Source: Omphalotus guepiniiformis (taxonomy: Eukaryota > Basidiomycota > Agaricomycetes > Agaricales > Omphalotaceae). From it: 64,000 nucleotides of DNA. The notes below the pieces were generated by a model. The model was given only the letters and a program-made list of their open reading frames with translations. It was not told the DNA's origin and made no database searches. The translations under genes and the position numbers were made by a program. Location: contig JAQOOI010000068.1 in assembly GCA_028554645.1 (NCBI GenBank), forward strand, positions 1 to 64,000, read 5' to 3'. This document shows, one piece after another, positions 26,249 to 54,445 of the stretch. Numbering within the stretch: the stretch's first letter is position 1; each line of letters begins with the position of its first letter.

Positions 26249-26256
26249 CGAAAGTA

Positions 26257-27924
26257 TTAGTTTTTCGAACCTCCAGGAGTGTTTATAGACACTTGTCCAT
26301 CAGACAAGGCCTTATACTCAACTCCCATCCTTTCTAGCTGTTCAAGTACTTGTACAGCCAATGTATCAACTTCATTATTTTCCATTCCCAGGGGGCTAGC
26401 TTCGTGCAGCTGCACCTGGTATGCATTTGGCATAGATTCTACTTCATATAAGAACTGATCTGGGTGGACTTCTACATCCCATCCCTTCTCTTTTGCAATT
26501 TTCTCAATCTTTTCCTTCCTAGTCTCTTTATCTCCTTCATTTATCCAAGGAAGTGGTGAACCATCCTTTAGTTCCCATCTATTCCTCGCATTTCGCTTCA
26601 TCCATCCCTTACTTACAAAGTGATGTTGAGCTGGACAGTCTTGTGAACCATGTCCTCTGCCTCCACACATGAAACAAGCTAGATCACGGGCAGGCATAAC
26701 CCTACTCGTGTCCAGAAGTCCTCTGTTAGGCATAGACGACATACCAACATTCGTCGAAGACGCTAGACCCATATTTCCAGTGTTTCTACTTGACATTTGT
26801 ACCATCCTTATCAAGGACTTCATCATCTCTTGATTCTGGTTCGTCATAGTGTCTAGCTTCTGGTGAATGGTCTTAATTTTCGTCTCGTTATCATCTACTG
26901 TGTACGAAATCTTTCGTTCCCACTCATTCTGTGCTTCTTCCTGCTTTATAGCAGTTAACCTGTCAGTCATAGATGGTCGGCTCGAGAGGGGTCTAGCTCC
27001 AGTGTTTATGACACCTGGTAGGCTCCAACTCGCTCCTACATCATATAATTCCTCAGGAGGAATAGCACATACAGCTTTTGCAGCTTTTACAACTTGCTCT
27101 AGAGTCCAAGGATCATCTCTTCGACGAACCCCTTCTCCAGTACCATTAGTTGATAACTTTCGAATAACTCTCTTTCTAAACTGTTCTTCTAGAGCAGCTA
27201 GATATCCTTGTACTGCCTCGAAGTTCGAGATGACAGCATGTCCACTCATTAACTTCTTTGCTTCAATCTGATACGCCCTCGAGAAGGCCAAAAGCTTCTC
27301 TAGTTGACCAGATGGCACTAGCATGTACTTTTCAATTACACTCATGAGCCTCTGCTTCGAGCCATATCCGTCCTTATCACTAGAATCCGGATAGCAGTCA
27401 AGCAAGGCAACTCTAAATGTTTCCCAATCATCTTCTGAAGCTGCATCAAGCGTAGCTAGCTCCTTTCTCGTCTCATAGGTCATGTATTTCAAGGCTAGAT
27501 GGATCTTCGCCATCTCAGATCTGATATTTAAAGTCCTAAAGATTTCCTCTAAGTCCTCGAGCCATCCTGCAAGTTTCTCAGGACGATCTCTATCAAATAT
27601 GGGTGCCTTCTTCGAGACTTTCGGTAACTGCTCGTTTTGTACTTCGGCGAGCACCTCAGCAGGTAGCTCTCGTAAGTATGCATCTACTACTTCAGTTTGT
27701 TGAGGTCGGCGCGGCCGATTTCCTCCAGGATTTCGATTCGCCGCAGCCTCATCAATATTTGGTTGTCTCTGCTGCTGTGGGTTTCGCCCTTGACCAGCAG
27801 GTCCAGCAGTAGCATTATTTCCTTCATCAGGCATGTTTGTAAAATCAGAGAATTCAGGACTTGGTAGTCTTATATCTCCTATAACTTCGTTTGTTCCTCT
27901 ATACCTCTCTCTAGACAGAGGCAA
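26257..27924 (-). CDS. gag: Gypsy Gag (nucleocapsid) protein
   Basis: The frame is about 555 codons, but the codon at 27924 is TTG. The first in-frame ATG is at 27834, giving 525 residues unless an upstream exon or non-AUG start is used; the frame is open upstream to a stop near 28095. The N-terminus is Gln/Asn/Pro-rich, the middle holds a retrotransposon-gag-like helical domain (KLAGWLEDLEEIFRTL, then ALKYMTYETRKEL), a coiled stretch follows, and the zinc knuckle CFMCGGRGHGSQDC fits CX2CX4HX4C. Gag would package element RNA. Its stop at 26257 lies 1 base after a GAAAAAC heptamer (26260-26266) that fits the -1 frame of the next ORF. Confidence 0.9.
   Translation of the reverse strand: MPLSRERYRGTNEVIGDIRLPSPEFSDFTNMPDEGNNATAGPAGQGRNPQQQRQPNIDEAAANRNPGGNRPRRPQQTEVVDAYLRELPAEVLAEVQNEQLPKVSKKAPIFDRDRPEKLAGWLEDLEEIFRTLNIRSEMAKIHLALKYMTYETRKELATLDAASEDDWETFRVALLDCYPDSSDKDGYGSKQRLMSVIEKYMLVPSGQLEKLLAFSRAYQIEAKKLMSGHAVISNFEAVQGYLAALEEQFRKRVIRKLSTNGTGEGVRRRDDPWTLEQVVKAAKAVCAIPPEELYDVGASWSLPGVINTGARPLSSRPSMTDRLTAIKQEEAQNEWERKISYTVDDNETKIKTIHQKLDTMTNQNQEMMKSLIRMVQMSSRNTGNMGLASSTNVGMSSMPNRGLLDTSRVMPARDLACFMCGGRGHGSQDCPAQHHFVSKGWMKRNARNRWELKDGSPLPWINEGDKETRKEKIEKIAKEKGWDVEVHPDQFLYEVESMPNAYQVQLHEASPLGMENNEVDTLAVQVLEQLERMGVEYKALSDGQVSINTPGGSKN
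26260..26266 (-). promoter_or_regulatory. candidate -1 frameshift site, gag-pro
   Basis: Minus-strand G AAA AAC lies directly before the gag stop TAA. A -1 slip gives CTA ATA CTT TCG ATG, which joins the protease frame with no stop. The heptamer resembles the strong A AAA AAC site but has G in the first position, so efficiency is uncertain. Reinitiation at the ATG at 26248 is an alternative. Confidence 0.5.
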
Positions 27925-28223
27925 GTTGTTTCGAACAGGGATTCTACTACGACGAGGGGGTCTAGACTCGAATATTAATTCTTCTTGTCCAGCCTCACGG
28001 GAATTTCGTGTAGTTCTAGGTTTTCCACGACGGCTAGAGTCACTAATCTTTGCAAGAGACTCGAATTCGAAGTAGAATACCTTGAAGTGTTATGCAAATG
28101 TACAATTTACACTTCGAGAGGCAAATTAAATCGTCAATTCAATTCGCCGAGGTCAAAAGACAGCGATATTTAGACACAGGGGTCTTTCAAGAGTAAAACT
28201 CGATATAATTGTTTTCTGAAACT

Positions 28224-33961: not shown

Positions 33962-36099
33962 ATGGCAGTGCCCAAAGCCTGGTTTTCACAGAATTATCGC
34001 TATGTTGGTTTTTCGGTCCTGACCACAGTCCTTCTTTTTCTCTCGATACACACTCTTTTTATTCCTCGTGGGGGTGACTTTTTTCATTCTGATCACTTCC
34101 ATCATCATCATCATCCCCCTCCCCCACACGGTCGTCGTCCTTTCCATGGGCCACCGGGGCCGCCACCACCTCCTGGAGGGTTCCTTGGACACAGGCTTGC
34201 TTTTCAAGAGAGGTTATATCAGGACTCTGTGAAGGAGAGACAAGAACTGATTAGACAGTTTGGTCCAACGCCTGAAGGCTCGGAGTCGTAAGTGATGTTT
34301 CATACGATGATACAGAGTTATTCATTCTTATATTCTTGTTAACGAAACACAGTCCTGATTTTTTGAACACCTCGCCTTTCAATGCTCTTTGTGAGTCTTT
34401 TTCGCATACATATAGGCTTCGATTCGTATTAAATGAGCACGTATCAGGGGAATTCTTTACAGCTTCCTTCCAGTGTCCACACCGTCTTCAGAGAATTGGC
34501 AGACTGGGTGACAATCCCAAATGGGTTTGCGGATTCGAACATCTCGAGCGCAAGAAGGATTGCGTCGTGTATTCAATTGGTGTGTGTTCGTTCCTTCGTC
34601 TGCTGTTGACATCAAAAGCTAACAGCATGAGCATAGGCGTTAGCCCCGAGTCCTCCTTTGAAGCCAGCGTGTTAGCACGAGCGGAAGGCTGCCAAGTCTT
34701 TGCGTATGATCTTAACGTAGACAAGGTCAGCCTTTGTTCCACGATCTTCATCACTAGCTAACTGTAATTCAATACAGCTTGGAGATACAATCAGCTCTTC
34801 CCCCGAGTTTTCCAAGCGCGCGTTTTTGTCTACATCCTCCATTGGAAAAAGAAGTGATGACAATGACAACGACAACGACAACGCAAACAAAGTCTTCACA
34901 CTGTCTTCTCTCATGGAGCGTAACGGTCATTCCTTCATTGACATCCTCAAGATCGACTTGGAAAACGGACAGCTCGAAGCATTAGAAGCCTTCTTCGACG
35001 ACAATGACTTTCCTCGTCTAGCTTCCCCCCGTGCACCTCACCCACCACCTAGGATGATTTCTCGTCGCTCGCCAACTTATGCACCTTTCTTACCTATTGG
35101 TCAACTCCAAGTTGCACTCTCGTCGCAGGAGGAAGTGTATGGTGGTGTTCAGGTTTTCGAGAATTGGTGGCAGAAGCTTGAGAAAATGGGTTTGCGTCCG
35201 TTTTTTGCTTCCCCTCGTCTTGGTGCACGGGGTGAGAGTTTGGGTATGATTGATGTAAGTGCTTTTTTTCTTTGCGTCTACTGGGATGTTGGGACTGAGA
35301 AGCATTTTAGTATTCTTTTATTAACATTCGAGGAGATCATGAACTTGTATCTGATCACCGTCGTCCTCCCCCTCCTCCGCCTGGCCACCCTCACCACCCT
35401 CACCATCCACCGCCACCGCCACCACCACCTGGTTCTCATATGCATTGGTATCACGAAGGTCCTCAACGCAACCCTCACTCCCCCGAGTGGGACAGTAATC
35501 GACCCTCCGAGAAGAAATTCGGTGAATGGGAATTATTCGCTGCTGAGCGTCTTGAGCGTCTTGAAGCCTTCCGTCGTCCCGGATCGAACCACCATCATGG
35601 GTTTGAAGGATATCCCGAGTTTCCCCACCCTCATGGTTTTGACTTTGAGGGTCGTCCTCCTTTTCCTTTCCCTTTCCATGGCGAATTTGAAGATTGCCAC
35701 AAGTTCCATCATCATCATCCTCCACCCCCACCTCACGAATCTGAAAGCTATCCCGACCGTGACTTCCCTCTTCCTCACGAGTTCGAAGACCATCCCCACC
35801 ACTCCGCGGAAAACAGCGTTTCCGAGTCGGAGTTCGATATCCCGAAACACGAACATCGTCCGATGATTCAAGAGGTTAACTCCGAGGTTGTGGACCAACA
35901 CACACGCAAGTGGAGACCGTTACGAGGTTCGAGTAAAGCTCGTCTTGGTCTTAAACTCTTCGATGAGGAGGAGGATAAACTTCGAGTTCAAAATGAGCGT
36001 GTTGTGGCGGATTCAGAAATTGAAGCTGAAGCCGAACCGGTTATTGAATTCTCGGAATCGGAATCGGAATCGGAATCTCAGACTGATTCTGAAGCCTGA
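33962..36099 (+). CDS. membrane-anchored methyltransferase-like protein (Methyltransf_22 type)
   Basis: Five exons (33962-34287, 34353-34579, 34637-34725, 34778-35254, 35311-36099) join in frame to 635 residues. Residues about 13-33 form one hydrophobic anchor, followed by a His/Pro-rich stretch, giving a type II membrane topology. The core reads GRLGDNPKWVCGFEHLERK, CVVYSIGVSPESSFEASVL and GCQVFAYDLNV, then HSFIDILKIDLENGQLEAL and YSFINIRGDHELV. These are the hallmarks of the FkbM/METTL24-like Methyltransf_22 family. The substrate is unknown. The last exon adds a long His/Pro/acidic-rich C-terminal tail. A low-complexity (DN)n insertion occurs in exon 4. Catalytic activity is inferred only. 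Confidence 0.8.
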
Positions 36100-37351
36100 A
36101 CGAGGCAGAGGCGGTTGAGCCGGCTCGTATGTATGTACAGTATGTATGTACAGGTCAAGCCAGCCAGCCAGCCCGAGGGAATCTAATTCCGAATCCGAAT
36201 CCGAATTCAAACTAGTGTTTAGTTGCGTTGCGTTGCGTTGCGTTGCGTTTTGCGTGGAGAGATAGGGAGCGAGGGCGGATTTGTCAACCCTTTCGAGAGA
36301 TTCAGATTGATTTCTTTCTCTCTTCTCTCACTTTTGCCAATTCCTATGTTTCAGTTCATTCATACCTTACTCAGGTCTGGTTGTGCGTCGACTATCGATA
36401 CTCGCTTTGGGATCTTCTTCAGGTGTCCCACTTATCAAGTGGGTCGTCTGACAGTACTAATCAGACCAGACCAACGAGGGAATCTAGTTACATGCCTCTC
36501 ATCAGTCACTGTTACCCTGACTAGCTTCCTTATCATGGACCGCCGCTCGTGGACGCTGCATCGACGTGTTATCTGCCTTTGTGCTACCTTGTTTTTATTC
36601 AGCTCTTTATATACTTGTTCTACCTGTTGACTGTATGGCATCGATGGCAATATAGCTTTTTGAAGTGTTATCGACTAACTCTATTGAGACTTGGTGTGGA
36701 GATATGGCATGAGATTCATACCTAGAGTTACATTGGCGCAAACAATATACACATCGAAGGGTAAATGACATATCTAGGGGGAATAATACAAGGAGCACGA
36801 AAGGTAGGTGAAGATAAGGAGGCTTGAGGTAGTAATGAAGGGCGTTAGTGAAAGGTAGACTAAGAAAGGACTAGTAAGAAACTTCAACACTGCTGATAAG
36901 CCGAAACCTATGTGGGGGGGACCTTATGCGCGAGTTCAACGTAGTGACGGGCGTGCATTGTACGGTGTATTGGGAGGCGTCATCAAATGACCAAAAACAC
37001 TCCGTACAGCACCTCGAAACAAAGGCGAATTTGCTTCAAATCGAGAAACACGCCGCGGTTTAACTTGGCTAGCTTTTGTAATTATATTTGCGTTTTCCTT
37101 CTTGCTGTGTGACGTAGTCTGGGTTGACGATCGGGAAAGAGGTGACTTGATCTTGCGGGCTTGAGGACTTGTATGACGAGATGAACTTGAATGGGACTGG
37201 CTCTTTGAGGTCCGTATAAGTTGCGACCTGCGGCGGTAAGCTTGCTCTGGCTCAATCCGTGTAGATAAGGGAAGCTTTGAAGAGGAATATGATAAGGCTG
37301 AGCGGCCAGGTAAGGGTAAATGTCAACATACCGATTCCGGCATGACACAAT
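36100..37351. other. intergenic, simple repeats
   Basis: The 3' flank of the methyltransferase-like gene. It contains TGTATGTACAG repeats (36128-36153), CAGCCAGCCAGCC (36159-36172) and a GTTGCGTTGCGTTGCG run (36223-36247). A 135-codon open frame at 36223-36630 begins in the repeat and has no protein-like features. An open minus-strand frame at 37082-37348 just downstream of the next gene could be an alternative 3' exon but is unsupported. Confidence 0.5.
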
Positions 37352-38008
37352 TCAAGCAAGACTGAGGTCTTGGAGGGAGTCCAGCTGCCAAAAGTCTCCG
37401 ACGACTCGCCGCTTGCCTAAAGCTCGTTTAAACGCAGTAAAATATACACATGAAGAGTAATACCATTGATCATAAGTTTTCCGAGCTAATATAGCGAACG
37501 AACGCATATTAGAGTTGAACCATTCATCAAGAGCTTTAGAACCAGAGTATTCCACGAGCTTTCCAGAAGATATACAAAGTACATCAAAGCAATAGTCTGG
37601 GTTTCGCATTAGTCTGTGTAATTCCGAGGAGGCGAGTCCTTTGTAGAAGAGAGATGAGAGCATCAAAGTTTGAACAAATTCGGGTGACAAAATGGCGCAG
37701 TGAAGCATCTGGGAAATAATAATATAGATTAGAGGTTAGGCTATGCAAAGAAGTGACGGACGATGAGAAAGACGCGCGCATACATCGAAGAAATCGCTAG
37801 GTCTGCAAGCTACTAGATCTTCAATGTCCTCCCGAAGGTTAGTCCAAAGTTGAAGAGAAAGATTGTGTAGTCCCAATACGCGATAAACTTCACTAGATCC
37901 GGAGTTGAGGTCAAGAACAAATGAATAGTCGGGAATGTCCCATGTAGACGCTTCAGTGTGGTCGACGACTTCGTACAGCGATTGTTTGATAGAATCTTGA
38001 CATGACAT
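37352..38008 (-). CDS. unknown small protein, two exons
   Basis: Exon 1 (38008-37784) starts MSCQDSIKQSLYEVVDHTEA and joins exon 2 (37708-37352) at GAT|ATG with GT-AG borders and matching phase, giving 193 residues. The sequence is leucine-rich and helical (VYRVLGLHNLSLQLWTNLRE, then RPSDFFDMLHCAILSPEFVQ), with no signal peptide or membrane helix. I do not recognise a domain. An in-frame upstream ATG at 38062 would extend it by 18 residues. It is divergent from the exonuclease gene at 38262, with about 250 bp between the starts, so the two may share a promoter. Confidence 0.6.
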
Positions 38009-38261
38009 CTTGAGGAACCTGGGAACTGGAGAAGTCAGCGTTAGTGGATACGTTGAAGTCAAGACGTACCTTGAAGAAGAAACGGTTTCGCGAGGTGAAC
38101 AGGCAAGAAACGCCTGGCGAGGAGGAAATAGAATAAGAAGAGAACGAAAAACGCTCAGCGGGCGGGCGGGCGTCTCTAATACATACCTAACTTATCTAAA
38201 GCTTTTGCCAAACACAAGTAATCCTCGATCACTTTTTACCTCTCCTCGACCGACGACCACT

Positions 38262-40754
38262 ATGAAGAGATCACCATCTTCACCGGACAAGGTAGAGGTT
38301 CCCACTAAAAAAGCCAAAATAATTGAAACGGGTTCTCAGTATGATGTCCAAGGTGATGAAAATCAAGAAGGAGAAGGAGAAGGAGGATGGACTAGAGTCG
38401 TGAAAGGGAAAGGGAAGAAGAAGAAGGCGAGGAAAGCTGAAGTGAAATTGAATGCAAGTTGTTTTCCTTTTTTTTTATGAAGTTGGGTATGGGATGTTAA
38501 TGGGAGCTTTTTGGATTTTTGGATGTGTGGATGTGTAGACGACACAACCTAGGTTTATGTATTCGAATTCGGATATTGTGCAGCGGCATCGTGCTATTGG
38601 AATCGAGGTGATTATGTTCGGGTCTTTTGCTTTATTTCTGTTGACTGAATTTTTGTCTGTAGGAAATCAGAGATCTTGCTTTACACATCATCGCAGATGC
38701 ACCTGCTCCAAATTGGCTTCGCGTCGAGGTACGGTACTTACACTTACCCCCACCCATTCTTCAATCCCAACCAACCAACTAACCAATCATCCACGTCCAC
38801 AGAACGCGCATCTAATCCCAAAAGTCGTCGCACTCCTCATACCAGGTCTAACACACGACATACTCTCACTACCACCCCTCCCAACATCCGCAACTTCAAA
38901 TCCAAATCTTCCTATATCAATACCTCTACCCCCGAGAGCACAACCAGGAACCGCACAAGCACAGACTGGTGGTGTACCGTTCATTGCTTCGACTTTCAGT
39001 CACGCTTGTCCTACCCGTGCGCCTGGTGATGCAACTCGTATGCATAGTGTCCTAAGCACGTTCTTTAATGGACCTATAAGTGGTGCGGAGAAGAAAAGAA
39101 GGATGGAATTGAATGAGAATGGTGTGTATACCCCCGGGGGGATTTATTCTCTAAAGGCGAATTACTGATGATATGACCTTTTTCTTGTTGTTTTGGATTT
39201 GTAGTTACTCGAGCAGACGACAAAGATCCTGCACAGTACATATTAACATTAGAAACAATGGTCGAGAACGACTATCCCATTCCATCTTACATGGCTGATG
39301 TATTTGAGAAGCCGCCTGGGTGGGTAGAGATGCCTGAGCAGCCGAAGGAGTCTATATCTATATTGACGCCTTCAGAAGATAAACCCAAACGAAAAATATA
39401 TAGCATCGACTGTGAAATGGTATGTTATCCCAATCAGCCTACTACGTTTGACGCTAATGGGAGTGTTTTTTATGGACAGTGCTTGACTGAAGATGGCAAA
39501 GAACTCACTCGAGTCTGTATAATTGACTATGAAACGGAAAAGGTCGTCTTTGATCAACTTATAAAACCATCAAAACCTATCGTGGATTATCTTACACGGT
39601 AACTCATTCCAAACCAAAACCATTATATATACTTTTCTGACACCCTTAACTTATGAAGATGGTCAGGTATCACAGCCGAAGCTCTAGCAACAGCCACTAC
39701 AACCTTTTCCGAAGCCCAAACACACATCTTACGTCTTCTAAGTCCTCCTACTCCCAACCCATTCTCAACTGCTTCCAACAACAACAAAACAACCATCCCC
39801 ACACCACCTCCAACCCCAATACTCCTCGGTCATTCCCTGGAATCGGACCTGAAAGCTCTAAAACTCTGTCATCCATTCTGTATCGACACAGCGCTTATAT
39901 ACAGCCACCCTCGTGGAAGACCACTCAAACCAGGATTAGCATGGCTCACGAAAAAATGGTGTAACCGCGAGATTCAAACGCGAGGCGAGGGCGGGCATGA
40001 TCCGGAAGAAGATGCCAGAGCGTGTTTGGAGCTGTTACATAAGAAACTTTTGGGAGGACCGGCTTTTGGGGAGTTTAAGACTGATTATGAGAGTATTTTT
40101 GAGAGAATGGCTAGGTCTAGTAGGCGAGCGGGAGCGGCGGCGGCGGGTGGGGGGAGTATTAGGAGTGCGGTTGTTGATCATGGGAATCCGTCGGTTATGC
40201 ATGGGAGTAAGGCTGGAACGAGTGTTGGATGTGGGAGTGATGAGGAGGTGGTGGAGAAGGTTAAGGATGTTGTTGGGTCGCATCATTTTGTGTTTGGGAG
40301 GTTTATGGCGTTGGCTAATGTTCGTGGATGTGAGTTCATTTTCATTTTTTTTGTATCCTGTATTTTCTTTATACTGATACGCTGTTTTTTTTTTTCTTTT
40401 TTTGGATGGACAACACCAAAAGCCGCACCAGGCGCCCCACTCCCACCCCCAGCATCAGATCCCTCCGAGGAAGAACTCGCCGCTGTTCTGAGCACTCTAA
40501 ACGCGCAACTCAAAGATCTTCATGCTTCGTTACCCCCTCGAACGGCGTTGATAATATTTACGGGACATTCTGATCCAAGACGAATGACGGCGTTGAATGC
40601 TCGAAAGACGGCGTTTGAGTTTGCGATTAGGAATGGGAGACTTACGCAGGATTTGAAGCCTGATGAACAGTGGCGAATGAGTGATATGCGTGCGTTGGAG
40701 GAGGCTGTTGAGTTGGCGAAGAGGGGGTTACTGTTTTTGGGTGTTAAATCTTGA
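38262..40754 (+). CDS. REX1: Rex1-type RNA exonuclease (DEDDh)
   Basis: Eight exons (38262-38453, 38539-38607, 38663-38728, 38803-39121, 39205-39419, 39480-39598, 39659-40329, 40423-40754) join in frame to 660 residues. A basic N-terminus (GKGKKKKARKAEVK) fits nucleolar location. DEDDh exonuclease motifs are clear: SIDCEM (Exo I, D and E), WSGITAEAL, GHSLESDLKALKL (Exo II, D) and GHDPEEDARACLEL (Exo III, H and D). Known role of the family: 3' trimming of 5S rRNA, tRNA and snoRNA precursors. The upstream block with RDLALHIIADAPAPNW and LLIPGLTHDIL is typical of fungal Rex1/Rex3-like proteins. Intron 1 appears to use a GC donor (AAT|GCAAGT). Confidence 0.88.
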
Positions 40755-41033
40755 GTTGAGGTGGATTTGTGGTGGTTGATTAGTTGGTTAGTTAGTTAGT
40801 TAGTTAGCTGCTGTGTATGTGAATCTGAATCTGAAACTACTCACTCTCTCCATTCTCCATAACGACGAGAAAAGGGAAATGGGAGATGCGAGACCTTGGT
40901 TGAATAGGGGAGTCCGAGTAAAGCTGAGACAAGCCCCTTTTTCAAAAGGTATATATTCCTAGGTCCCAGCTCAGATGCTCTCTCACTCGTACACCCATCA
41001 TCTAAACCAACCAAACACTTAAATCTGCTCATC
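40755..41033. other. intergenic, TTAG repeat
   Basis: Contains a (GTTA)n microsatellite at about 40780-40808, and presumably the exonuclease terminator and the promoter of the next gene. No coding signal. Confidence 0.6.
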
Positions 41034-41519
41034 ATGTCCACTTATATTCACAAACTTTCTTCATCGTCGACCGAGTCTCTGACAACGTCCGATGTAGACT
41101 GTAATAAATCTGAAGTAAACTCATCCACATCTTCCTCACCCACGACGCTCTCACCCACCCACTTATCCACCTCATCCACCTCCTCCTCCTCCCCCACCTC
41201 TGATTTTCTCCCACCTTTCGTACCCGCCTTCCCCTATATCCCATCAATCCGCGTTCCTCCCCCACTTCTTCTTTCCGAAACACCTCTACGAGAGCGTCGT
41301 CAGTTTACTTCGTTTATTACTTTCACTCCCCGGTCAGTGCTTGCACCTGGTTCTGCACCGATGCCTGCGAAAGGACAGCTTGGGCCTAAAGTTGGTGCTT
41401 TACCTCGTAGAAGACGGGCTTCGACTTTGAGTTCTTCTTCTTCTACTTTGATGAAGCCTGTGCCTGTTGTTATTCATGAATCGAAGAGATTCGAGATTGA
41501 GCTTTGTGCGTCTTCTTGA
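41034..41519 (+). CDS. small Ser-rich protein of unknown function
   Basis: A single open frame of 161 codons starts MSTYIHKLSSSSTESLTTSD. The N-terminal half is Ser/Thr/Pro-rich and disordered. A more conserved-looking part follows (PLRERRQFTSFITFTPRSV, then GQLGPKVGALPRRRRASTL). The style matches many small basidiomycete proteins with short basic motifs, but I recognise no family. It is convergent with luz, whose stop is 400 bp away. Codon use is protein-like and no intron is needed. Confidence 0.5.
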   Translation: MSTYIHKLSSSSTESLTTSDVDCNKSEVNSSTSSSPTTLSPTHLSTSSTSSSSPTSDFLPPFVPAFPYIPSIRVPPPLLLSETPLRERRQFTSFITFTPRSVLAPGSAPMPAKGQLGPKVGALPRRRRASTLSSSSSTLMKPVPVVIHESKRFEIELCASS

Positions 41520-41921
41520 TGATGGTGAGGAAGGTCGCGATTCGTGAAGAGGGTGTCACTGTACGATATGGACAGAGCAGTTTATCCACTTTGTTATCCA
41601 TTGTTATCCATTGCTATCATTGCTATCATTGCTTTTTTGTTTATTTTGAATTCATTGCTTTCTTGCTTTCTCTAAATCGTTGCGATGAGATTTCTATAAG
41701 TCTACATTGCCCCATAAGTTAGGTGAGTTCTTCTTTACTGACTACTGCCACCATGACAACCCTCGCGTCCGTTGACTTTCAGATAGAGAATGTAACCTTT
41801 TTCGAAGTTGCATAGGTGCGTTTACTGCTATGTGCGTGCAAACCCCTATTCAATAGGCTTTCATTTTTCCTAAGCTCATGAATCTACTCTTTAACACGCT
41901 GTAATACATTCACAAGATTAT
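41520..41921. other. intergenic between convergent genes
   Basis: No gene is seen. Contains TTGTTATCCA repeats (about 41590-41625) and T-rich sequence, presumably the 3' untranslated regions of the Ser-rich gene and of luz. Confidence 0.5.
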
Positions 41922-42740
41922 CTACAATTCCACAATTCTACCCACCGGATCATTCGTCATATATCCAACAGAAGCCTCAACAATCATCTCCACAACCCTA
42001 ACCTCCTCTTCATCCCTCGGTGCATAAAGAAACGTCCACTCCGTCGGTGGACCAGGAACACCAGGCCCAGCAAGTGGATGTCTTTGACCCCACCCTTTCA
42101 CCAAAACTTCCTTCGCATCCTGCGCAGCGAGAGCAAGATGGAGTGTACAATCATGATAATCATGCATATGCGCAACCTCGCGTTTAGTTCGGCGAACTGT
42201 ATCGTGGCTAGGGACGTTCTGGGGGTCGGTAATTGGGATAGAGGGTAAGACGAAGATGGCTTGAGCGTGGAATTCGAATTTGGAGGTGGAGAGGGAGGTT
42301 GTGGTTGTGTGTCGGGATTGGATGCGGGGGATGATTTTATTGATGAGTTGGTTGGTGGCGAAGTCTGGGTTGGGAAGTTGGGTGCGCTGGGAGATGATGG
42401 GCAAGTTAGTGGGGGGTTAATATTCGGAGTTATGTTAGCCCGCTCGAACCTGTCGCTGGATGATATGGCTAGTGATACTCGGTCTTGGCCCCTCGCGAAA
42501 TGGAAGGTCAGTTAACCACCTCCTTTTCTCGGGCAGACGATCATAAATCGCTACGTCTTTCTGTTCTTGACGGAATAGAGAAAGTGCACAGACGATGATG
42601 TACCCTTGAAAGTTCTGCGGGGCGTACGAAGGTCCTACTTCCAGGAATGTTTGATAATCTTTGCGGAGGAAGGGAAAGGCGAGTGCGGAGAAGAGAATGA
42701 GTATGCTGCAAGTGATTGCTGCTAGACTTGGCTTGTACAT
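41922..42740 (-). CDS. luz: fungal luciferase (3-hydroxyhispidin-oxidising)
   Basis: Two exons (42740-42450 and 42386-41922; the intron begins GTTCGAG and ends TCCCAG) give 251 residues. The N-terminus has one hydrophobic anchor (about residues 5-25: SLAAITCSILILFSALAFPF), as in the roughly 267-residue luciferase of Neonothopanus nambi. The body carries blocks I recognise from fungal luciferases: DYQTFLEVGPSYAPQNF, LFRQEQKDVAIYDRLPEKRR, PSHDTVRRTKREVAHMHDY, HDCTLHLALAAQDAKEVL, GWGQRHPLAGPGVPGPPTEW and YAPRDEEEVRVVEMIVEAS. Established role: it oxygenates 3-hydroxyhispidin with O2, giving green light and caffeylpyruvate. No frameshift or missing block is seen, so the gene looks functional. It is head-to-head with h3h. 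Recognition is from memory of the family, not a search. Confidence 0.95.
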
Positions 42741-43094
42741 TTTTTGGGTGTATACGTCGGGTGTTCAGCCAGGCTCGTTTTAAATGATTTTCAGACTGAG
42801 GCAGTTCTTATTCGCGTTACTTGTGTGCAAAGGTTCTGCCTGTCATTGGACGGAACCGAAGAAAGGTCCGCGGATTCGGAGATTTGTATTCCGATTGTGT
42901 GTTCGTCCGAACGACTCGGAGCTGGGGTTGCGGAAATCCGAGTCCGGAAATCCGGTGAATAGCAGTACCACCTTCTTCTCGGACAAAGCGAACACCGTGC
43001 TATGCTCAACCCCAATCCTATCACCGATAATCGGTTCCCCTTCTCTTTATAACGTTCCAATCTCAATCCGATTCGCAATGTCTTTGTTTGCTAC
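42741..43094. promoter_or_regulatory. shared divergent promoter of luz and h3h
   Basis: The 354 bp between the two start codons must hold both promoters. It is rich in CGG/CCG triplets in inverted arrangement: CGGAACCG at 42851-42858, TCCGCGGA at 42867-42874 and CGGAAATCCG at 42931-42940. Gal4-type Zn2Cys6 regulators bind such paired triplets, so a shared activator is plausible but not shown. A TATA-like TTTATAACG lies near 43047 on the h3h side. Confidence 0.6.
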
Positions 43095-45152
43095 ATGGCA
43101 TCCTCCAATCCTTTTCCTTTGAATATCCTAATCGTCGGCGCTGGGCTCGGGGGTCTCGCAGCTGCTATCGCGCTACGTCGTCAAGGTCATATTGTTAATG
43201 TAGGGTTTCCTCCTCATATCCATCGGCGATGTGTTCTCGTATGCTGACTTCGGGTGCGTTGGGTGGATATATAGATATTCGACTCGTCAAGTTTTAGAAC
43301 TGAACTTGGAGCTGGACTTGCTGTTCCGCCTAATACCCTACGCGGTTTGAAGGAACTTGGGTGTGAGATTGGGAATCTTGATGCTGTGGATAATCTTTGT
43401 GTTAGTGGGAGCTTTCCGAACTCGAAGGGTGAAATGTTCTGATACTTATAGGAAGTATGGTTTTTTTCTTTTTTAGTTCACTGCGATGGGGTATGATGGA
43501 AGTGTTGGGATGATGAATAATATGACTGATTATCGTGAGGCGTATGGTTTTGTACGTTTCCTTCGTCGAAACTTTTAGAAGCGCTTCTTTCTCACTAATT
43601 AATATCGTCGATGTCTACTATGTAGCCTTGGGTTATGGTTCATCGCGTTGACCTACATAATGAATTACGACGCGTGGCACTTGATCCAGACGGCCTTGGG
43701 CCTCCTGCGGTATTACACCTAAATCATCGTGTTGTATCCTGCGATGTCAAGTCTTGCACTGTTACGTTCGCGAATGGAATTACATATACTCAGGCGGATC
43801 TTATCGTTGGTGCGGATGGTATACGCGTATGTACCTCATCCCCCCCCCCCCCCCCCCCCCCCTTGGTCTTTCTTCATATATCTTTTATATCTTTAGTGAA
43901 TACTGACTTAGCGCCTGATATAGTCTACAATCCGACGATTCGTACTAGAAGAAGAAGAAGATGTGAAAATACCCCCAACAGGAATCGCAGGTTTTCGATG
44001 GTTGATACAAGCCGATAAATTAGATGCGTATCCTGAACTCGATTGGATCGTTAAGACCCCTCCTCTCGGGGCCCGATTGATTTCTGCTCCCGCGGCGGTC
44101 CCTAGGACTAGTGACTCGGCAAGGGAAGAATCTGGGACTGGGACTGGGACTGGGACTGGGACTGGTGGTAGTGAAGCTAGTAGGGTGGCGGGGGATCGAC
44201 GTACGATTATTATATATGCGTGTCGTGGTGGTAGGTTGGTTAATGTTCTTGCGGTACATGATGATGAACGTGATCAGGATTCTGTAGGTGAGTTACCCCC
44301 TCTTCCTCCCTTTCCCCCACCCCCCCCCCCTCCAACTCGAACTGATTTTTTGTCCTCCCCCCCCCTTCCCCCTACTGCCGGGCCTCGGGGTGTGTAGAAT
44401 GGAGCGTACCAGCCACCAAAGACGACTTGTTTCGTGTATTTAACGATTACCATCCAAGATTTCGAAAACTTTTCGAGTTGGCGGAGGCGGGGGATGGGGA
44501 TATTAATCTTTGGCAGATGCGTGTTGTACCTCCTTTGAGGAAGTGGGTTAATGAGAGGGTTTGTTTGGTGGGTGATGCTGCGCATGGTACTTTACCGAGT
44601 GAGCCACTGTATCTATCACTTCCTCACTTCCTCACTTCCTCACTTCCTCACTTCCTCACTTCCCATTTCTTTCATTCTACATAGAGTTTCAACACTAACA
44701 TTTCTTAACACTAACATTTCCTTGCCCTTCGTAGCTTTAGGTCAAGGATTCGGTATGGGACTCGAAGATGCCATAGCACTCGGTACACTCCTACCACAAG
44801 GAACCACAGTGGGTGATCTTAAGAATCGACTTGGGGTGTATGAGGAGTTGAGGAAGGAAAGAGCGGAGTTTGTTTCGCGGGAATCGGTTGAGGAGCAGGT
44901 TGTTGGGGAGAAGAGGGGGTTGTATTTGAGATGTGGGTGCTTTTTTCTGGGTTTTGTTTTTTTTGGGGTTTTGTTTTTTTGTTTTTTTTTGGTTTGTTTC
45001 ACGTTCTTTTTCTGAGTTGCCTGGCTAACGCGTTGGTGTTTTTGGTAGCGAAGGAATTGAGGGATAGAGTTATGGGGTATGATATTAGATTGGAGAGTGA
45101 GAGGGTTCTTGAGGGGTTAATCCGAGTCGAACATGCGAGTGCTAGCGCTTAG
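43095..45152 (+). CDS. h3h: hispidin-3-hydroxylase (FAD monooxygenase)
   Basis: Eight exons (43095-43199, 43275-43400, 43477-43551, 43626-43826, 43924-44287, 44398-44598, 44735-44932, 45049-45152) join in frame to 457 residues. FAD/NAD(P)H monooxygenase motifs: IVGAGLGGLAAAIALRRQG (GXGXXG, residues about 13-31), VGADGIRSTIRR (DG motif) and VCLVGDAAHGTLP with GQGFGMGLEDA. Blocks specific to H3H, such as GYDGSVGMMNNMTDYREAYG, are present. Established role: NADPH-dependent 3-hydroxylation of hispidin to the luciferin 3-hydroxyhispidin, the substrate of Luz. An inserted Ser/Gly/Thr stretch with a (GT)n dipeptide repeat (about 44115-44170) appears extra relative to the family. Introns hold a 26-base C run (43837-43862) and CTTCCTCA repeats. 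Confidence 0.93.
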
Positions 45153-45492
45153 CGTTTATAATCGTGTTTCAAGTTATGTATCTACAAACACAGGAACAGT
45201 ATTCCAAGACGGAGGATGACTGGATCGATGACTGGATGTGAATTTGGATTTGTACGTACAGAAGACCAGGCGATGATTCACCCCCTCGAAGTTCGCTAAC
45301 CAAACGGCCGAGTCATAGAAGTGCACTGCTAGTAGAGTAGGAGTTAATCACACTGCAATCACACACCACATTTAGACCTGAAACAATTACTCCAGTACAT
45401 GTACATTGTATAAAACTACAAAAACATATACATTTATCGACCCTCAACTAAGCAGCCAGCGTACCCGTACCCATACATACAAACCAACAAAC
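45153..45492. other. intergenic, convergent 3' flanks
   Basis: The tail-to-tail interval between h3h and the MuiA-like gene. Only AT-rich, non-coding sequence is seen. It should hold both terminators. Confidence 0.6.
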
Positions 45493-47692
45493 CTAAAGCC
45501 CTACAACCCTAACACCCACCGGAGCAGAAACCTCCCACTTCAAAACCAAATTAACCTTACAATGAGCCTGTACCTCACAAACCCAATTCATCTTTCCATC
45601 CTTTCCCAGCGCATCAACATCGACCTCGGGGACTTCAGCACCATTCCACTGTGCAATAACACCTTCCGAGAATTTAACTGACCCAGGTCCAGCGGTGGAT
45701 ATTTGATCCAGTGGTGAGTCTGGTGAGGGTGACGATACAGGGGGGGTTTTCGTAGATGATGATGATGCACTACTACCGCCCACACTCAGAAGACTTGACA
45801 TCCCAGAATTCTTGGAATCTTTACTAGACCCAAACATCGATATCGTTCCTCCACCGCTAGTATCTTTGGCAGTGCCAGAATCAGAGGTCGCTGGAGTAAT
45901 CTTCAAAGCCGGGTTAACCAGCTTCACTGTAATTCGCTCATCCTCCGACACTGGTATCTGATCGATGATTTTGAGGAAAGGAACAGCGAAAGACTTGGTA
46001 TTGTGCACCGTCAGTCGCTGCGTATATACATAGTTGGTTGATTTGCCAGAATACAACGAAAACCCGGAGGTAGATGCCTTCTTGGCCAGAGGGTGATAAG
46101 AATTCGGATAGACCGGTCGAGTCTGTGAATACCAAACCAAACCACGTATGAGATCAAGGCAATCATTAATTCATGATTCATAAAGAACAGAGATATATTA
46201 CTTGCCCTAGTGGACACTCAAAAGTTTCATTGGGACTAACAGCGGGTACGTCGGTCTTGGCTATGAAACTACCGTCCTGATAAACGTTCGCTTGCCCCGA
46301 AAGCAACGTGAACTCTGATTCGTTCAAAATCTTGGCCTTCAAAGAAAAAAAATGAGCGGCATAGAACTCCTTGGAGCTATAACTCTTGAAAGACGTTACC
46401 TTCAAAGCCACTTTTGTAGGATCCATCTTTGGTACAGCCTCCCAAGATAAGATTGCGTCTACTTTAAGTGTTGTGATCGTGAAAGTACGTTCGCCAATAT
46501 CGGAAGGGATGGAGACTAGTCCCGGAACTCTGAACGTTGATGTCCCAATTAAGTTGGGCTTGGAGGAGACATATGCTGAGGCGGCTGGGAGAGAACGTCT
46601 GAGGCTGACAACCGTAGCGTCCTCCTTTACAGCCATTCGATGGGCTTCGCGACCAAACTCGCGTTGAATTGGGGGTTTCGGTTCGTAAACTGAAAGTGTC
46701 CAGTTGGTGAGTGGGGCAAGGTGTCCACCATACGTAGGGGAGGCGGTTTCCAGAGTAAGAGGTACGTTCGCCCATGACTATAAACCCTCTGCATTAGAAA
46801 CAGTACAACATTCCAAAAATTTCAATGCAACCAACCTCGCCGGACCCCGGTATTTTGTCTAACTACGGCTTTATAGATCAACGTAACCGACGTCTCTGAT
46901 TCTTCCATATTGACACGAATATCGTAAGATGCTTTCCATGTAGCACCAGAGACGGCTACAAGAAGCAAAAAAAAAAATAGGTGAGGAAGTCTGCGAGAAA
47001 AGTTGTATTCACTCACTGACCATATTTCAGCACAAGGTCAATATCGGTCGCATCTTCTGCGTAGACACCGATAGAAGCGCGAATGCTGTGTTTATCGTGA
47101 TCACGCGATATGGATCCTCGCTCATCCTCGATCGCTTTTTCCAACATTTTCATCTCAGCTTCTTGGTCCAGCAACTTATTATCCAATTTCTCCGCAGTAG
47201 CCTCGTATTCATCCATGACAGAATCAAGGTAACGTGCTGAACGCTCAAAGTACCTAGAAAGGTCTGAATGGATGCAATAGATATCTTCGTGCGGTCGAGT
47301 GAGTTCTTGAGGCGGTCCTTCTTCAACAGGAGCTCCTCGAATTTAGGAGAAGGTGTAAAAGGTGTGGTTGGCGTGTTTAGAATGGTAACATCATGAATGG
47401 TCGCTGATCCTTTCCCCTCAACCCTGTGTCGCAAACCGAAGATGTGAGTGTATAAATCATGGAAGAACGACTCTTGTGATACACACCTAAGGGATTGCCT
47501 ATCCATCATGCTTGACAGTCCGTCAATGTGGACTTGATTATGGCCAGCCTTGACACTGAGCTGAAAAAGACGAGTGATCTCGGCTTGACTCGAATACACA
47601 CTGACACTTTGAATCTTGCCGGAGGTGTTGGAGTCAAGTTGAATCGTATTTGGCTCGAAATCAGGAGGTGCGACAGCGGATTGTGAAGCCAT
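45493..47692 (-). CDS. MuiA-like protein (DUF4140/DUF4139)
   Basis: The gene starts MASQSAVAPPDFEPNTIQLD at 47692 and runs through about seven exons. The DUF4140-like N-terminus (SVSVYSSQAEITRLFQLSV, VHIDGLSSMMDRQSLR) is followed by a coiled coil (SVMDEYEATAEKLDNKLLDQ) and a DUF4139-like beta domain (ATWKASYDIRVNMEESETSV, TYGGHLAPLTNWTLSVYEPK, then DQIPVSEDERITVKLVNPAL). The family is broadly conserved from bacteria (mucoidy inhibitor A) to fungi; its molecular role is not established. Near 46090-46215 the join is odd: the family pattern PLG-LDPSIRITYHP appears here split over two frames, so a one-base loss or an unusual splice is possible. It has no evident role in luminescence. Confidence 0.8.
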
Positions 47693-48200
47693 AGCTATGG
47701 TGGTCGTTTGTGACTATTGTTGTGGGTAGTGCTGCCAGAGCACGAAGGTCTCTGGTCTGGATGGTTGTGGTGAAAGGTAATATACAACCAGGTACCTTGA
47801 TGGCAATATATGTCGCAGATGCATATCAGCTTTGAATAATGCCTCTACAAGTGGGACATTGCCGCGACTTTCTCGTGAATTGTAGCCATGCATAGTAGAA
47901 GCAGAGAGAGCCAGGGCCGCCCAGATGGTGGTAAAGCATGAAGAGCGGGAAGGTTCGCTTATCAAACGCGTGATATTGTCGACCTGCGCGTCTCTCCTGC
48001 GCGTCTCTCCTGCGCGTCGAGACTCTCAGCTACCCACTACGTCCAATGCAAACCCAACACATCTTCCTTACCACTCCTGACAGCATCTTCGGTGACTAAT
48101 GTCTGATTTGCAGTGGTTTGGGCTCATTTCCTTGAAGGTTCTTCAGGAACATACGGCCATTTCAAAGTCGATAAAGGTTTCATCCAAGATGTCGTCTCCT
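47693..48200. other. intergenic region
   Basis: No gene is recognised. Two tandem CTCCTGCGCGTCT copies occur at about 47994-48017. The right end reads VVWAHFLEGSSGTYGHFKVD in one plus frame, which looks protein-like and may be the decayed upstream part of the monooxygenase relic that follows. Confidence 0.4.
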
Positions 48201-48840
48201 TCAGCCGCGGCTGTATTGGATGAAGACGACGACGGGACTTTTTTGCGAAGGTCTTCATCAATCGTTTGGTGTCCCATAAGACTCAGACTCTCCGGATAGA
48301 CTTTGTTTGCAAAATTACACGCCGACACTGGTCGAGAGTCCATCCTCGTCATTCATTCGGAGACGAAACGAAGAATTGCTGAAGGTGAGTATGCTATGCT
48401 CAGCGACCCTTTAGATTGCGATTGGACTGATTCTCTCCCTCTCGCAGAATATTATTGGAGCGTGCCAGCTCTGAGCTTCCAGGGGCGACCAGTTTTCCGA
48501 TTTCAAGAATACCATCTACTATTTTCTGAAGGATTCTGGAGCTGACGGAGGAGCAAGTTGATTAGTCTCTGGGAGAAGTGTGTTGATCTTGAGACGATGG
48601 ATGAACACCGGCAAACGGGTTTTGTTTGGTTTGTTGGGAGATGCTGCTCATGTTCTTACATTTTGGTCGGTTGAGCTTACTTTCTTTCAGTGTTTCATCT
48701 TCTGTTCTGAATTCTCTGTTTCTCAGCGTTGGGGTCAGGATTTTTGGGTTAGGGCCACAGGATGCCGTGCACTTCTCCGACGCGACGAACGGGCACTGTG
48801 TCCCAGATTGACAGCGGATTCGTGGTGTACAACTCAAAGA
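48200..48840 (+). pseudogene. decayed H3H-like FAD monooxygenase
   Basis: Plus-strand pieces match the C-terminal half of h3h in order: ILVIHSETKRRIAEG (compare VLAVHDDERDQDSVG), an intron ending CTCGCAG, WSVPA at 48456 followed by VFRFQEYHLLF, then KRVLFGLLGDAAH (GDAAH codons 48637-48651), an intron ending TTTCTCAG, and a GQDF.../PQDAV segment at about 48732-48772. Both introns sit at the same places as introns 5 and 6 of h3h. Frames change and a stop lies near 48298, so the copy is dead. No N-terminal FAD-binding GXGXXG part is seen. It could derive from h3h itself or from a related monooxygenase. Confidence 0.6.
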
Positions 48841-48944
48841 TGTGCAAGGAGCGTGGCTGCCAGTGAATGGGTTTCGGCTGAATCATATCATAAGAAGAGC
48901 AGCCAGATCATGAAAAGCGGGGGCTTCATTTCATTTGAGATGTG

Positions 48945-49320
48945 TGTTTTCACTGCCTCAATGCTCCTTGCTCCTTACTCCTTGCTCCCTTTCCGGTAGC
49001 ATCAAAATTGCGATTGACTGAAGCCTTCGTCTGTTTGTTCCAGGATTTGCCATAGTGGGGCAGCATAGTGGAGAGCGAGAGAGCTGCTAAATTCTGATTC
49101 TGATTCCATCTGGTTCACGTATGTATTTCACTGCCTCACTGCCTCACTACTCCTTGCTCCTTGCTCCCCGCTTCCCTTCCGGTGCCATCAAAGTTGCGAT
49201 TGACTGAAGCCTTCGTCTGTTTGTTCCAGGAAAAGGAACTTTCAGTGGGTCGTGCCAATTGGAGAGCGAGTCTTGATCTACTGCTAGAATTCTGAATCTG
49301 AATCCATCTGGTGTCGGGCT
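48945..49320 (+). repeat. tandem duplication, about 180 bp unit
   Basis: Positions about 48945-49122 and 49126-49310 are two diverged direct copies sharing CTGCCTCA, CTCCTTGCTCC, the stretch from GCGATTGACTGAAGCC through CTGTTTGTTCCAGGA, and TCCATCTGG. The CTCC-rich starts contain shorter internal repeats. No gene is associated; the unit follows the monooxygenase relic. Confidence 0.75.
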
Positions 49321-50212
49321 CACGAATATGAAGCCATTTGTGCCTTCCTACGTTTGTCTAATCTCGTTGGAATGGATTCCGCAGATGCGACCGATTTTCG
49401 AGGTTGAGGACCATTGGAAGTTGTCGTTTTCAATAGCTGAATGCGATCTATCCTCCGAATTTCCCCATCCCTCAAGATGGAATTTGTGCAGAATGCGAGA
49501 AGAGAAAAGATAATCATCACAGACGGATCCTTGGTCTCCTTGGGTGAGCAATTTTGTCATTTACTGCCGAGTGAACTCTTCCTAACTGCTGACTCTACAT
49601 AACCTTCTGCAGTGTTGGTCCGCGCGTTCTAGAATTGAGTATATGCTCACAGTCAAGAACGTCTAGCGTTGAATGCGATCACCGGTAATCAATCTGGATG
49701 AATGATTGGTTTGGACAGCTGAACAAGTTCAACACCACCACCGTACAGCTTCGGTTCCGTGATGCTCAGGACGGGAGAAGCCTGATTGAAGCCTGAAAAC
49801 AGAGTCGAAATGAGCGATTTTGTTCAAATCTCAACTTCTAGCACTAGCACTAGAACTAGCTCAGAAGGTCTGGTGACTTGGAGAGTGGAACGCCAACGGT
49901 GTCTTGTGGGCGTTGATGTTTATGTCACTTTTTTGAGTCGTGAGTACACTTACTGTCGACCGTCACTCCTTTCTTACGCGATTTGCTCCAGGTCCATCAT
50001 GTACTTCTTCCTAGTTTGAATACAGTGGTACTAAATGTACACGAGTTGAACGTTGCCCGTACCCCACTTTCCAACTGAGTACAGGCGCTTTTACGGAAGT
50101 GGAAATGGGTAATGGTCACAGTTTTCGCATGCCAGTGGGGGGTATCAACTTCGCTATCACGCATATATAGAATGGTGCACGCAACAACCTTCGACTGAGA
50201 ACCCAGACTCAA
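49321..50212. other. intergenic, tyrosinase upstream region
   Basis: No intact gene. A plus frame at 49806-49935 (MSDFVQISTSSTSTRTSSEG, then LVTWRVERQRCLVGVDVYV) looks protein-like and ends in a GTGAGT donor-like site, possibly a relic exon. The last 200 bp should be the tyrosinase promoter, with CATATATAGAATGG at about 50162. Confidence 0.4.
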
Positions 50213-51870: not shown

Positions 51871-52374
51871 GAATTAGCAATGTTCAGAAAGCTTTGACTG
51901 GTGTCCTTTGACGCTTGCTGCGGGCAGGAAGCCGGATGTCCACGGAAAGAAATTCAGACTTTTCGGAAGTATTTCAATTGCAAAGCAATACCTGGGCGTG
52001 GGGGCCGGTAATCCTCCTGGTAACTCTCCAACGTAGGCCTGCCTTGAGTGAACTCGGCGCTTAGTCACTGCGCTCGCTTGATCACGCTCACATGACCGTA
52101 TCTGATGACTCATCAATGGCTTTTGAGTATCTCGGTTGGTGGCCCTTGACTTTCTCCTCATAACACATTCTGGGGATTCTGGGAATATCACGAAGAGCCA
52201 GGATAATTGAACATAAACCTCTCACTGGTACGTTAATACTGCCCAAGAATTCGGTTTTCTTCTAATCTAAATCCACTTTTGTCTACATTCGTGCTCTTCA
52301 TGTTTCACTTGTAGGATTTTCATTCAAACCCAAGTCTTATTTCCCAAGATATTCATTACACTTTCATCGCAAGG
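51871..52374. other. intergenic, start of inverted repeat
   Basis: No gene. From about 52047 the sequence matches, in inverted form, the region 62921-63266 upstream of the second F-box gene, so the duplicated unit includes the promoter. The F-box 5' untranslated region presumably starts within the last 150 bp. Confidence 0.6.
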
Positions 52375-54445
52375 ATGCCAATTAGACGCCGTCGGACTAC
52401 CAAACCAAAACCACTCATTCCGCTCTGCAAGGAATGCGGCTATGCAACAGTTTTTGCACCTAGTAGACTCATGAACATGTTCAAGGCCCCGAAGGTGGAT
52501 GTTTCATCTACACTCCCAGGTGAAGTGACACCACGGGACGCGTCTGTGATCTCCGAATGGTTGCCCCAAGCACGTCGTGACCTCGCGCTATATACTAGGG
52601 AGTTAAACCGTCTTCGGTCGCGTCTCGTCAGACTCGAGGGTATGCGAGACAGTCTGCAGGAGCGCATTGACTGTCATGCCTCGCTAGTCGCACCTGTTGC
52701 TCGCCTGCCCACTGAGGTGCTGCAGATGATCTTACATCTGAGCTGCATTCCCGATGATAGCGAGGGCCCGCATCACAGGGAGCGAGGTGTCAGTCTGATG
52801 TACCCAGCCGGTCGGACAGCTCTTCGGCTGGCATTGGTCTGCTCGCGGTGGAGGAGTGTGGCATTGGATATCCCGGAGTTGTGGTCATATATCAACGTTT
52901 CGATATTCAGTCACCGCGAGCTTGGACCTATTTTGATGTTGCCTGAGGATCGTGGCAAGCTTCAGGGTTCTAAAGAGCTTGCGCAGTGCATGGAGGCTCA
53001 CCCTGTCCAGAATGTTGTCGAGCTCTATCTCGAACGCTCTCAGGCTCATCCTCTTGACATAACTCTGTACTGCCCATCAGAATTCGAGTCTGCTCCTGAG
53101 CGTGTTGTTGAGCTCTCACCAACAGAAATTGTCTGCAACCATTTTCTCTTGGAGGTTTACAAGATATTCTGTGCACATTCACACCGATGGCGTACCGGTC
53201 ACATCAACATAGCTCACGGTCCTCAGGCTCTGCCTCGAGAGGACGTTTATGGAAGGTGGCATGATGAGGATGAGATAGATGAAGTTGCCAATGGGTACTA
53301 TGACAGTAAAGAACTCAGTGTTCCCCTGCTCGAAGTTTTGGATATATATCCTGGGCCTGCCACGATAAAACTCTCAAAAGCCCCGCGCCTTCATACACTA
53401 CGAGTAACTGCGACGCCGGAGTGGTGCCGTTTTCCCATCGAAAAAGAAATCCTCAAAGCCCCCGCCCTTCGTTCGTTGACTTTACGCAGATACGACGCTT
53501 CTGATTTGCAGAGTATTCTCTCAAAACTTGCAGTTCATTCTCGAGTTGATTTTATCTTTGAATTGCCCCATAAGGATCGGCGTTACGCATTTTATGACAA
53601 TCAGATTCGTGAATACCCAGCTCCAGCAGTGAAATCGATCTTGGTCGACTGTAGTGTTGCACAATCCCTCGACTCCCTTGTCGAGCTTTTAAAATCGTTG
53701 ACCGCGCCGAACGCTACAAAGATGGAGTTTGTACTTGGTCAGAGACAGCAAGCAACAAAGTTTCCTCACAACCTTCTACTAGGGATGATCAAGCGTTCAG
53801 CAATGCCGCTGACAATTCTGAAGATCGACGGGTTTTACATGCCGAATAAGGCGCTGGTGAAGATCTTGAAGCTTTTACCGACCATTGAGGTGCTTGAAGT
53901 GGGTGAAGGTTCTATCTGGGAGCTCAAGCGTACAGTTAGGAAGTACCTCGACGAGCATGGCTCGCAAGTGAAAGAAGCCAAGAGTGAAGGATCTCAGTGG
54001 AGAGACTTGATACGTGGTTCTACGTATGTTGAAGAAACCTTCATCTGTTCCAAACTCATTCGGGAACTCACCCTCTGTTCCTTCTTGAATGACTCGCACT
54101 CGGTCACTCCACTCCTACCCAACCTGACATCCCTCAAATTGACGTTTCGCCCTACACGTGGTTCTCAAGATCTGAAGAACATGGTGTACTCCAGGCGGTG
54201 TGATCTGGATTTATCTGCGTCGAACACTGTCCAGTCTGGATCGAACCCTGAAGCCGTAAGATTGAACTCGACTCGAAGTACAGGAGGTTTGATGTCACTA
54301 AAGCTGGTTCTCATAATGGACACGCTTATACTTGACAATCGAGAGAGAACTATGTTTCGTGAATTCGGGGATGTAATACAGGAGCTGAAGGAAGAAGGAT
54401 TGGATGCACAGATGAAGGGTTTAAAATACCATTGAGCCTAGAGTA
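52047..54445 (+). repeat. inverted repeat, left arm (F-box unit)
   Basis: About 2.4 kb including the promoter, the F-box gene and about 10 bp after its stop. It is the reverse complement of about 60858-63266. The GTCACTGCGCTCGCTTGATC segment marks the outer edge in both arms. Confidence 0.85.
52375..54435 (+). CDS. F-box domain protein, copy 1
   Basis: An intronless frame of 686 residues starts MPIRRRRTTKPKPLIPLC. A CX2C (CKECG) lies near the N-terminus, then a coiled segment (YTRELNRLRSRLVRLEGMRD), and an F-box-like motif LPTEVLQMILHLSCIPD followed by ALRLALVCSRWRSVALDIPE at about residues 110-170. The rest is leucine-rich and repeat-like (LHTLRVTATPEW, LRSLTLRRYDASDL, LTSLKLTFRP), as in agaricomycete F-box/LRR proteins. 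Such proteins recruit substrates to SCF ubiquitin ligases; targets are unknown. It is nearly identical to the gene at 60866-62920 on the other strand. Confidence 0.88.
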   Translation: MPIRRRRTTKPKPLIPLCKECGYATVFAPSRLMNMFKAPKVDVSSTLPGEVTPRDASVISEWLPQARRDLALYTRELNRLRSRLVRLEGMRDSLQERIDCHASLVAPVARLPTEVLQMILHLSCIPDDSEGPHHRERGVSLMYPAGRTALRLALVCSRWRSVALDIPELWSYINVSIFSHRELGPILMLPEDRGKLQGSKELAQCMEAHPVQNVVELYLERSQAHPLDITLYCPSEFESAPERVVELSPTEIVCNHFLLEVYKIFCAHSHRWRTGHINIAHGPQALPREDVYGRWHDEDEIDEVANGYYDSKELSVPLLEVLDIYPGPATIKLSKAPRLHTLRVTATPEWCRFPIEKEILKAPALRSLTLRRYDASDLQSILSKLAVHSRVDFIFELPHKDRRYAFYDNQIREYPAPAVKSILVDCSVAQSLDSLVELLKSLTAPNATKMEFVLGQRQQATKFPHNLLLGMIKRSAMPLTILKIDGFYMPNKALVKILKLLPTIEVLEVGEGSIWELKRTVRKYLDEHGSQVKEAKSEGSQWRDLIRGSTYVEETFICSKLIRELTLCSFLNDSHSVTPLLPNLTSLKLTFRPTRGSQDLKNMVYSRRCDLDLSASNTVQSGSNPEAVRLNSTRSTGGLMSLKLVLIMDTLILDNRERTMFREFGDVIQELKEEGLDAQMKGLKYH

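Follow-up and report, generated by a model that had tools for sequence, protein, structure and literature searches.

An intact luciferase and hispidin-3-hydroxylase gene pair in Omphalotus guepiniiformis, with the hispidin synthase gene on a separate contig

The window analysed here comprises bases 1–64000 of contig C68 (JAQOOI010000068.1; 176,695 bp) of the Omphalotus guepiniiformis assembly GCA_028554645.1 (42.5 Mb, 80 contigs) and carries two divergent genes: a luciferase gene, luz, and a hispidin-3-hydroxylase gene, h3h. On the minus strand, luz (41922–42740) encodes 251 residues in two exons: exon 1 (42450–42740, start codon at 42740) contains the membrane-anchor helix, and exon 2 (41922–42386) the Luciferase domain (PF17648; 70.3 bits, the cut-off being 23.7) and the stop codon, with a GT-AG intron of 63 nt (42387–42449) between them. 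On the plus strand, h3h (43095–45152) encodes a 457-residue FAD monooxygenase (PF01494, 68.6 bits) in eight exons (43095–43199, 43275–43400, 43477–43551, 43626–43826, 43924–44287, 44398–44598, 44735–44932 and 45049–45152), and all seven introns are GT-AG. The sequence-only reading had described two intact, spliceable genes sharing a 354-bp divergent region, and in silico splicing bears this out: both frames are open, and the intergenic region measures exactly 354 bp (42741–43094). Spliced alignment of the Neonothopanus nambi proteins, run separately, returned identical junctions for both genes, with a single addition, a 66-nt in-frame stretch of h3h (44111–44176, plus strand, GTGACT donor) that is either an optional intron or a low-complexity coding insert. 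The frame is kept in both cases, giving 435 residues with the intron and 457 without; the alignment prefers splicing, which would excise the low-complexity stretch, and an insert of such length at this site was found in none of the 29 aligned homologues. A run of 23 C at 43840–43862, whose assembled length may be unreliable, lies within h3h intron 4 and so outside the coding sequence.

Luz finds its best database match in the N. nambi luciferase (LUZ_NEONM; 83% identity over 97%, E = 1e-137; 20 database proteins at E ≤ 0.001), and H3H in the N. nambi hispidin-3-hydroxylase (H3H_NEONM; 73% over 98%, E = 3.5e-209). Among the best 120 of the 329 proteins that match H3H at E ≤ 0.001, further orthologues follow at 54–64%, after which identity drops to at most 43% for paralogues. 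Assignment of the two proteins to the Luz and H3H clades, as first read from the DNA, is upheld by these matches and by the trees, which pair the window proteins with those of N. nambi at support values of 99/98 for Luz (16 rows) and 100/99 for H3H (25 rows, with a long-branch warning among the paralogues). As the best matches reach only 83% and 73%, the species' own Luz and H3H appear to be absent from the protein database. Luz keeps 120 of the 123 columns that are invariant across 13 homologues, and H3H keeps 123 of 127 across 29; the four H3H departures include A354G and S355T immediately after GDAAH. The N-terminal membrane anchor proposed earlier for Luz is supported by hydropathy, with a best 19-residue Kyte-Doolittle mean of 2.26 at residues 6–25 (start 6–7); the N. 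nambi maximum is also 2.26, at residue 21. The FAD motifs said to be kept in H3H are in place, with GAGLGG at 15, GADG at 164 and GDAAH at 349, which we take to be the flavin-binding motifs. A search for solved relatives of Luz gave a best PDB match at E = 0.13, which is not credible, and an AlphaFold2 model (13 homologues, N. nambi Luz first) reached a mean pLDDT of 61, too poor for a fold search. A DNA search and a Luciferase-domain search each find a single Luz locus in the genome, and other H3H-like places show at most 48% identity over short stretches. Judged by sequence, luz–h3h by itself is an ordinary orthologous pair.

What, then, of the remaining enzymes? In the available part of PMC11766655, the pathway is given as established for the family: HispS converts caffeic acid to hispidin, H3H converts hispidin to 3-hydroxyhispidin, Luz turns this into light and oxyluciferin, and caffeylpyruvate hydrolase (CPH) returns oxyluciferin to caffeic acid. 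By orthology, the same pathway would operate here. A ketosynthase search (14 matches, with all 21 candidates scored), a HIPS_NEONM search and spliced alignment located hispS at C74:46010–40065 on the minus strand, with 18 exons encoding 1666 residues, no internal stop and a stop codon at 40067–40065; with a rough hand-joined query, identity to HIPS_NEONM is 74% over 99%. Its Pfam domains are AMP-binding, ACP, KS, AT and ACP, without ketoreductase or dehydratase, which is the HispS layout of luminous species in the accessible text of PMC9866795, and by this domain set the C74 protein is a luminous-type hispidin synthase. FAA-hydrolase matches occur at three places in the genome. The gene on C62 near 356 kb (PF01557, 209.6 bits; spliceable without a stop, one intron having five in-frame placements) is a putative CPH, by its apparent likeness to N. 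nambi CPH. The ACPS-family (phosphopantetheinyl transferase) domain has three matches in the genome; one of them, on C73, is next to a ketosynthase match and could be part of a fatty-acid synthase. Among the 92 of 319 P450 candidates scored, C68 and the first 712 kb of C74 contain none; a Mycena P450 joined to a HispS-type gene has its best genome match, at 40% identity, on C78. That fusion, the M. olivaceomarginata predicted protein P0196, probably represents two neighbouring genes merged in annotation.

Luz and h3h are thus adjacent on C68, with hispS on C74 and the CPH-like gene on C62, and the side-by-side arrangement of luz, h3h and hispS in the fungal bioluminescence cluster is not found here. 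Assuming a correct assembly, luz lies 41.9 kb and hispS 40.1 kb from the start of its contig, so that at least about 82 kb would separate them even if the two contigs abut. The term 'bioluminescence locus', used in the sequence-only reading, holds for two of the enzymes, but hispS and the cph-like gene are elsewhere. The consulted portion of PMC11766655 describes luz, h3h and hisps as a conserved cluster, and its figure of 14 out of 15 luminous species, taken from Ke et al., shows that some kind of exception is already known. As a proxy for co-location, we used equal 'longest contig' values in the Luz, H3H and HispS match lists: among the matches listed, 22 of 24 other species have hispS on one contig with luz or h3h, M. 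olivaceomarginata being counted among the 22 on a HispS-like protein at only 45% identity. The two exceptions are M. citricolor and M. sanguinolenta; for the latter, the names of the matches suggest that two assemblies are involved. By the same proxy, luz and h3h agree on a contig in 12 of 13 species among the matches listed, the exception being M. filopes. M. sanguinolenta also has a second Luz-like protein, P0019 (168 aa, 55%), on the same contig as its main Luz by proxy, perhaps a duplicate. The literature within reach, as listings and selected passages, described no species whose hispS stands apart from luz–h3h.

The reading we favour, and hold with considerable confidence, is that of a working luz–h3h pair in a genetically complete pathway whose cluster occupies three or more contigs, most likely as the result of a move of hispS. 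Against a working pair stand the four altered invariant residues of H3H, two of them just after GDAAH, and the faster change of Luz described below, which might indicate decay. Provided that the genes are expressed and their products active, the intact HispS on C74 would supply hispidin, which H3H, as a flavin monooxygenase, would convert to 3-hydroxyhispidin; Luz, held in the membrane by its N-terminal helix, would use this and oxygen to produce light and oxyluciferin, and the CPH-like hydrolase on C62 would probably recycle the oxyluciferin. The earlier proposal that the organism is luminous or recently was so is a good one and is strengthened by the intact luminous-type HispS; light emission itself we infer from the gene set.

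The move of hispS is suggested by what lies behind it. At C74:39753–39932 there is a fragment with about 72% DNA identity to the F-box genes of C68, its frame broken by gaps, with 133 bp between its end and the stop of hispS; a genome search with it listed five places on C68 (9 of 10 candidates scored), and a second comparison covered C68 pieces. Two genes of this C68 family lie in the window, at 52315–54435 (plus strand) and 60866–63034 (minus strand), and their proteins are 91% identical. Together they make up an inverted repeat with about 95% identity, and further copies on C68 occur at 109–159 kb. Close F-box loci (at least 59% protein identity to the window's F-box protein) number at least nine on C68, including the two in the window, and at least one on C20 at 73%; these counts are lower bounds from 62 of 81 candidates scored, and the fragment itself was compared in this second step with C68 copies only. 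On its upstream side, hispS neighbours a TPR gene whose best relatives are on C74 itself. We consider the fragment a likely relocation scar, and the simplest story is that hispS was carried from the luz–h3h neighbourhood together with a piece of a C68-family F-box gene, the direction and the date of the event being conjectural. A serious competitor, to which we give somewhat less than an even chance, is that luz and h3h moved instead, or that the F-box fragment came independently and is silent on the former neighbourhood of hispS: F-box genes are numerous in this genome, with a close relative on C20, and relatives of the DUF4139 gene next to h3h occur on C14 and C74 (near 162 kb), so that families do disperse here. 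That nine of the ten close F-box loci were found on C68, and that the fragment sits so near the hispS stop, speaks for a departure of hispS from C68.

The promoters offer a possible link between the separated loci. The 354-bp luz–h3h region contains seven copies of TCCGA/TCGGA, a motif chosen after looking at the sequence, and this count is reached by 2 of 747 tiles; before hispS there are four, whether the adjoining 354 bp are counted (a number reached by 5 of 747 tiles) or 600 bp (by 18 of 430). Two in 600 bp, as before the cph-like gene, are unremarkable (136 of 430 tiles). An inverted pair, TCCGA-N5-TCGGA, lies at 42906 between luz and h3h, and another inverted pair with a different spacer lies 172 bp before hispS; with spacers of 0–8, such pairs number 12 in 266.7 kb of background including the window. 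The 354 bp also contain 20 CGG/CCG triplets, where the window averages 5.3 and dinucleotide shuffles average 14.0. The longest word common to the luz–h3h region and the 600 bp before hispS is 10 nt, which 51 of 200 shuffles reach and which is not significant. As a guess, a zinc-cluster regulator might act on TCCGA/TCGGA.

Of the three orthologous enzymes, only Luz is clearly faster than its N. nambi counterpart. With three outgroups, window-specific and N. nambi-specific changes in Luz stand at 25:5, 21:8 and 21:5 (p = 0.0003, 0.024 and 0.0025), compared with 28:17, 24:25 and 27:15 in H3H (p = 0.14, 1 and 0.09) and 79:85, 90:81 and 79:73 in HispS (p ≥ 0.5). The Luz asymmetry is compatible with adaptation, with relaxed constraint and with an N. 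nambi Luz that is itself slow. Taken together with the promoter motifs and the F-box fragment, it allows a more speculative picture, which we regard as possible but doubtful: a pathway in the course of being dispersed, with hispS gone off with its F-box piece, the loci co-regulated through the shared TCCGA/TCGGA motif, and Luz changing faster. The same excess of Luz changes, with none in HispS, would also fit a fading remnant in which light has been lost and Luz has been under relaxed selection since the cluster broke; however, all four reading frames are intact, Luz retains nearly all of its invariant residues (120 of 123), and a slow N. nambi Luz or adaptation may equally explain the asymmetry, which makes such a remnant unlikely.

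The surroundings of the pair contain several further features. A Ty3/Gypsy-like element occupies 20847–28089 on the minus strand, with a 1379-aa ORF carrying RNase H and integrase zinc-binding domains; two more long ORFs upstream in the element look gag- and protease-like by eye, and no direct or inverted repeats of at least 60 nt (LTRs) were found around it between 18 and 33 kb. Repeats flanking the luz–h3h pair are only low-complexity or short ones. Adjoining h3h is a DUF4140/DUF4139 gene (45493–47713, minus strand) with relatives on C14 (78–79%) and on C74 near 162 kb (74%), and next to luz is a serine-rich ORF (41038–41519, plus strand) without a Pfam match but with relatives of 71–75% DNA identity on C63 and C71. 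In a search for an allelic copy of 36000–50000, only matches of 71–87% were listed, mostly to the DUF4139 neighbour and the serine-rich ORF; since the query's own place was also absent, this search alone does not exclude such a copy. Equal PKS match scores on C7 and C72 and near-equal P450 scores on C9 and C45 indicate that the assembly may partly hold both haplotypes. Telomere hexamers on C68 number none in the first 3 kb and one in the last 2.7 kb. An assembly artefact, in which hispS truly adjoins luz–h3h and was put on C74 by a false join, could draw on these seemingly duplicated pieces and on the likeness of the fragment behind hispS to C68 genes, but it is quite improbable: there is no N in the C68 pieces examined or the hispS locus, hispS lies 40 kb inside C74 with an upstream TPR neighbour whose best relatives are on that contig, luz lies 42 kb inside C68, no match to the F-box family on C74 was listed in the protein search (62 of 81 candidates scored), and even with a misjoin at hispS, tens of kilobases would separate it from luz unless C68 were misjoined too.

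The current account ties the persistence or loss of fungal bioluminescence to whether the gene cluster is retained. Core enzymes that are intact yet on separate contigs constitute a natural test of the need for clustering: if the pathway is indeed being dispersed and light persists, tight clustering would be unnecessary for fungal bioluminescence, and if light is gone, we would be looking at a first step of its loss. The genome also provides a new set of Luz, H3H and HispS, 17–27% diverged from the N. nambi set of engineered glowing organisms.

Finally, we would like to compare this arrangement with known systems. N. nambi is the closest: Luz, H3H and HispS are 83%, 73% and 74% identical over 97–99%, the HispS domain set is the same, and the Luz and H3H trees pair the two species. 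They differ in that the window Luz lacks about 16 N-terminal residues, the window H3H may hold a 22-residue insert, and hispS is off the luz contig in O. guepiniiformis, whereas the N. nambi genes are described as clustered in the available part of PMC11766655. The clusters of Armillaria/Desarmillaria and Mycena contain orthologous luz, h3h and hispS; hispS is co-located by proxy in 22 of 24 species among the matches listed but not in O. guepiniiformis, where, among the 92 of 319 candidates scored, no P450 lies near luz–h3h or hispS. Panellus stipticus likewise has hisps, h3h and luz, but in the accessible text of PMC12653593 two scaffolds each carry the three genes in a span of about 10 kb and no cph was detected, while O. 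guepiniiformis has its hispS apart and a cph-like gene present. Guyanagaster shares the core genes, its light being unrecorded in the consulted portion of PMC11766655; its luz is reported there as truncated, whereas that of O. guepiniiformis is full length.
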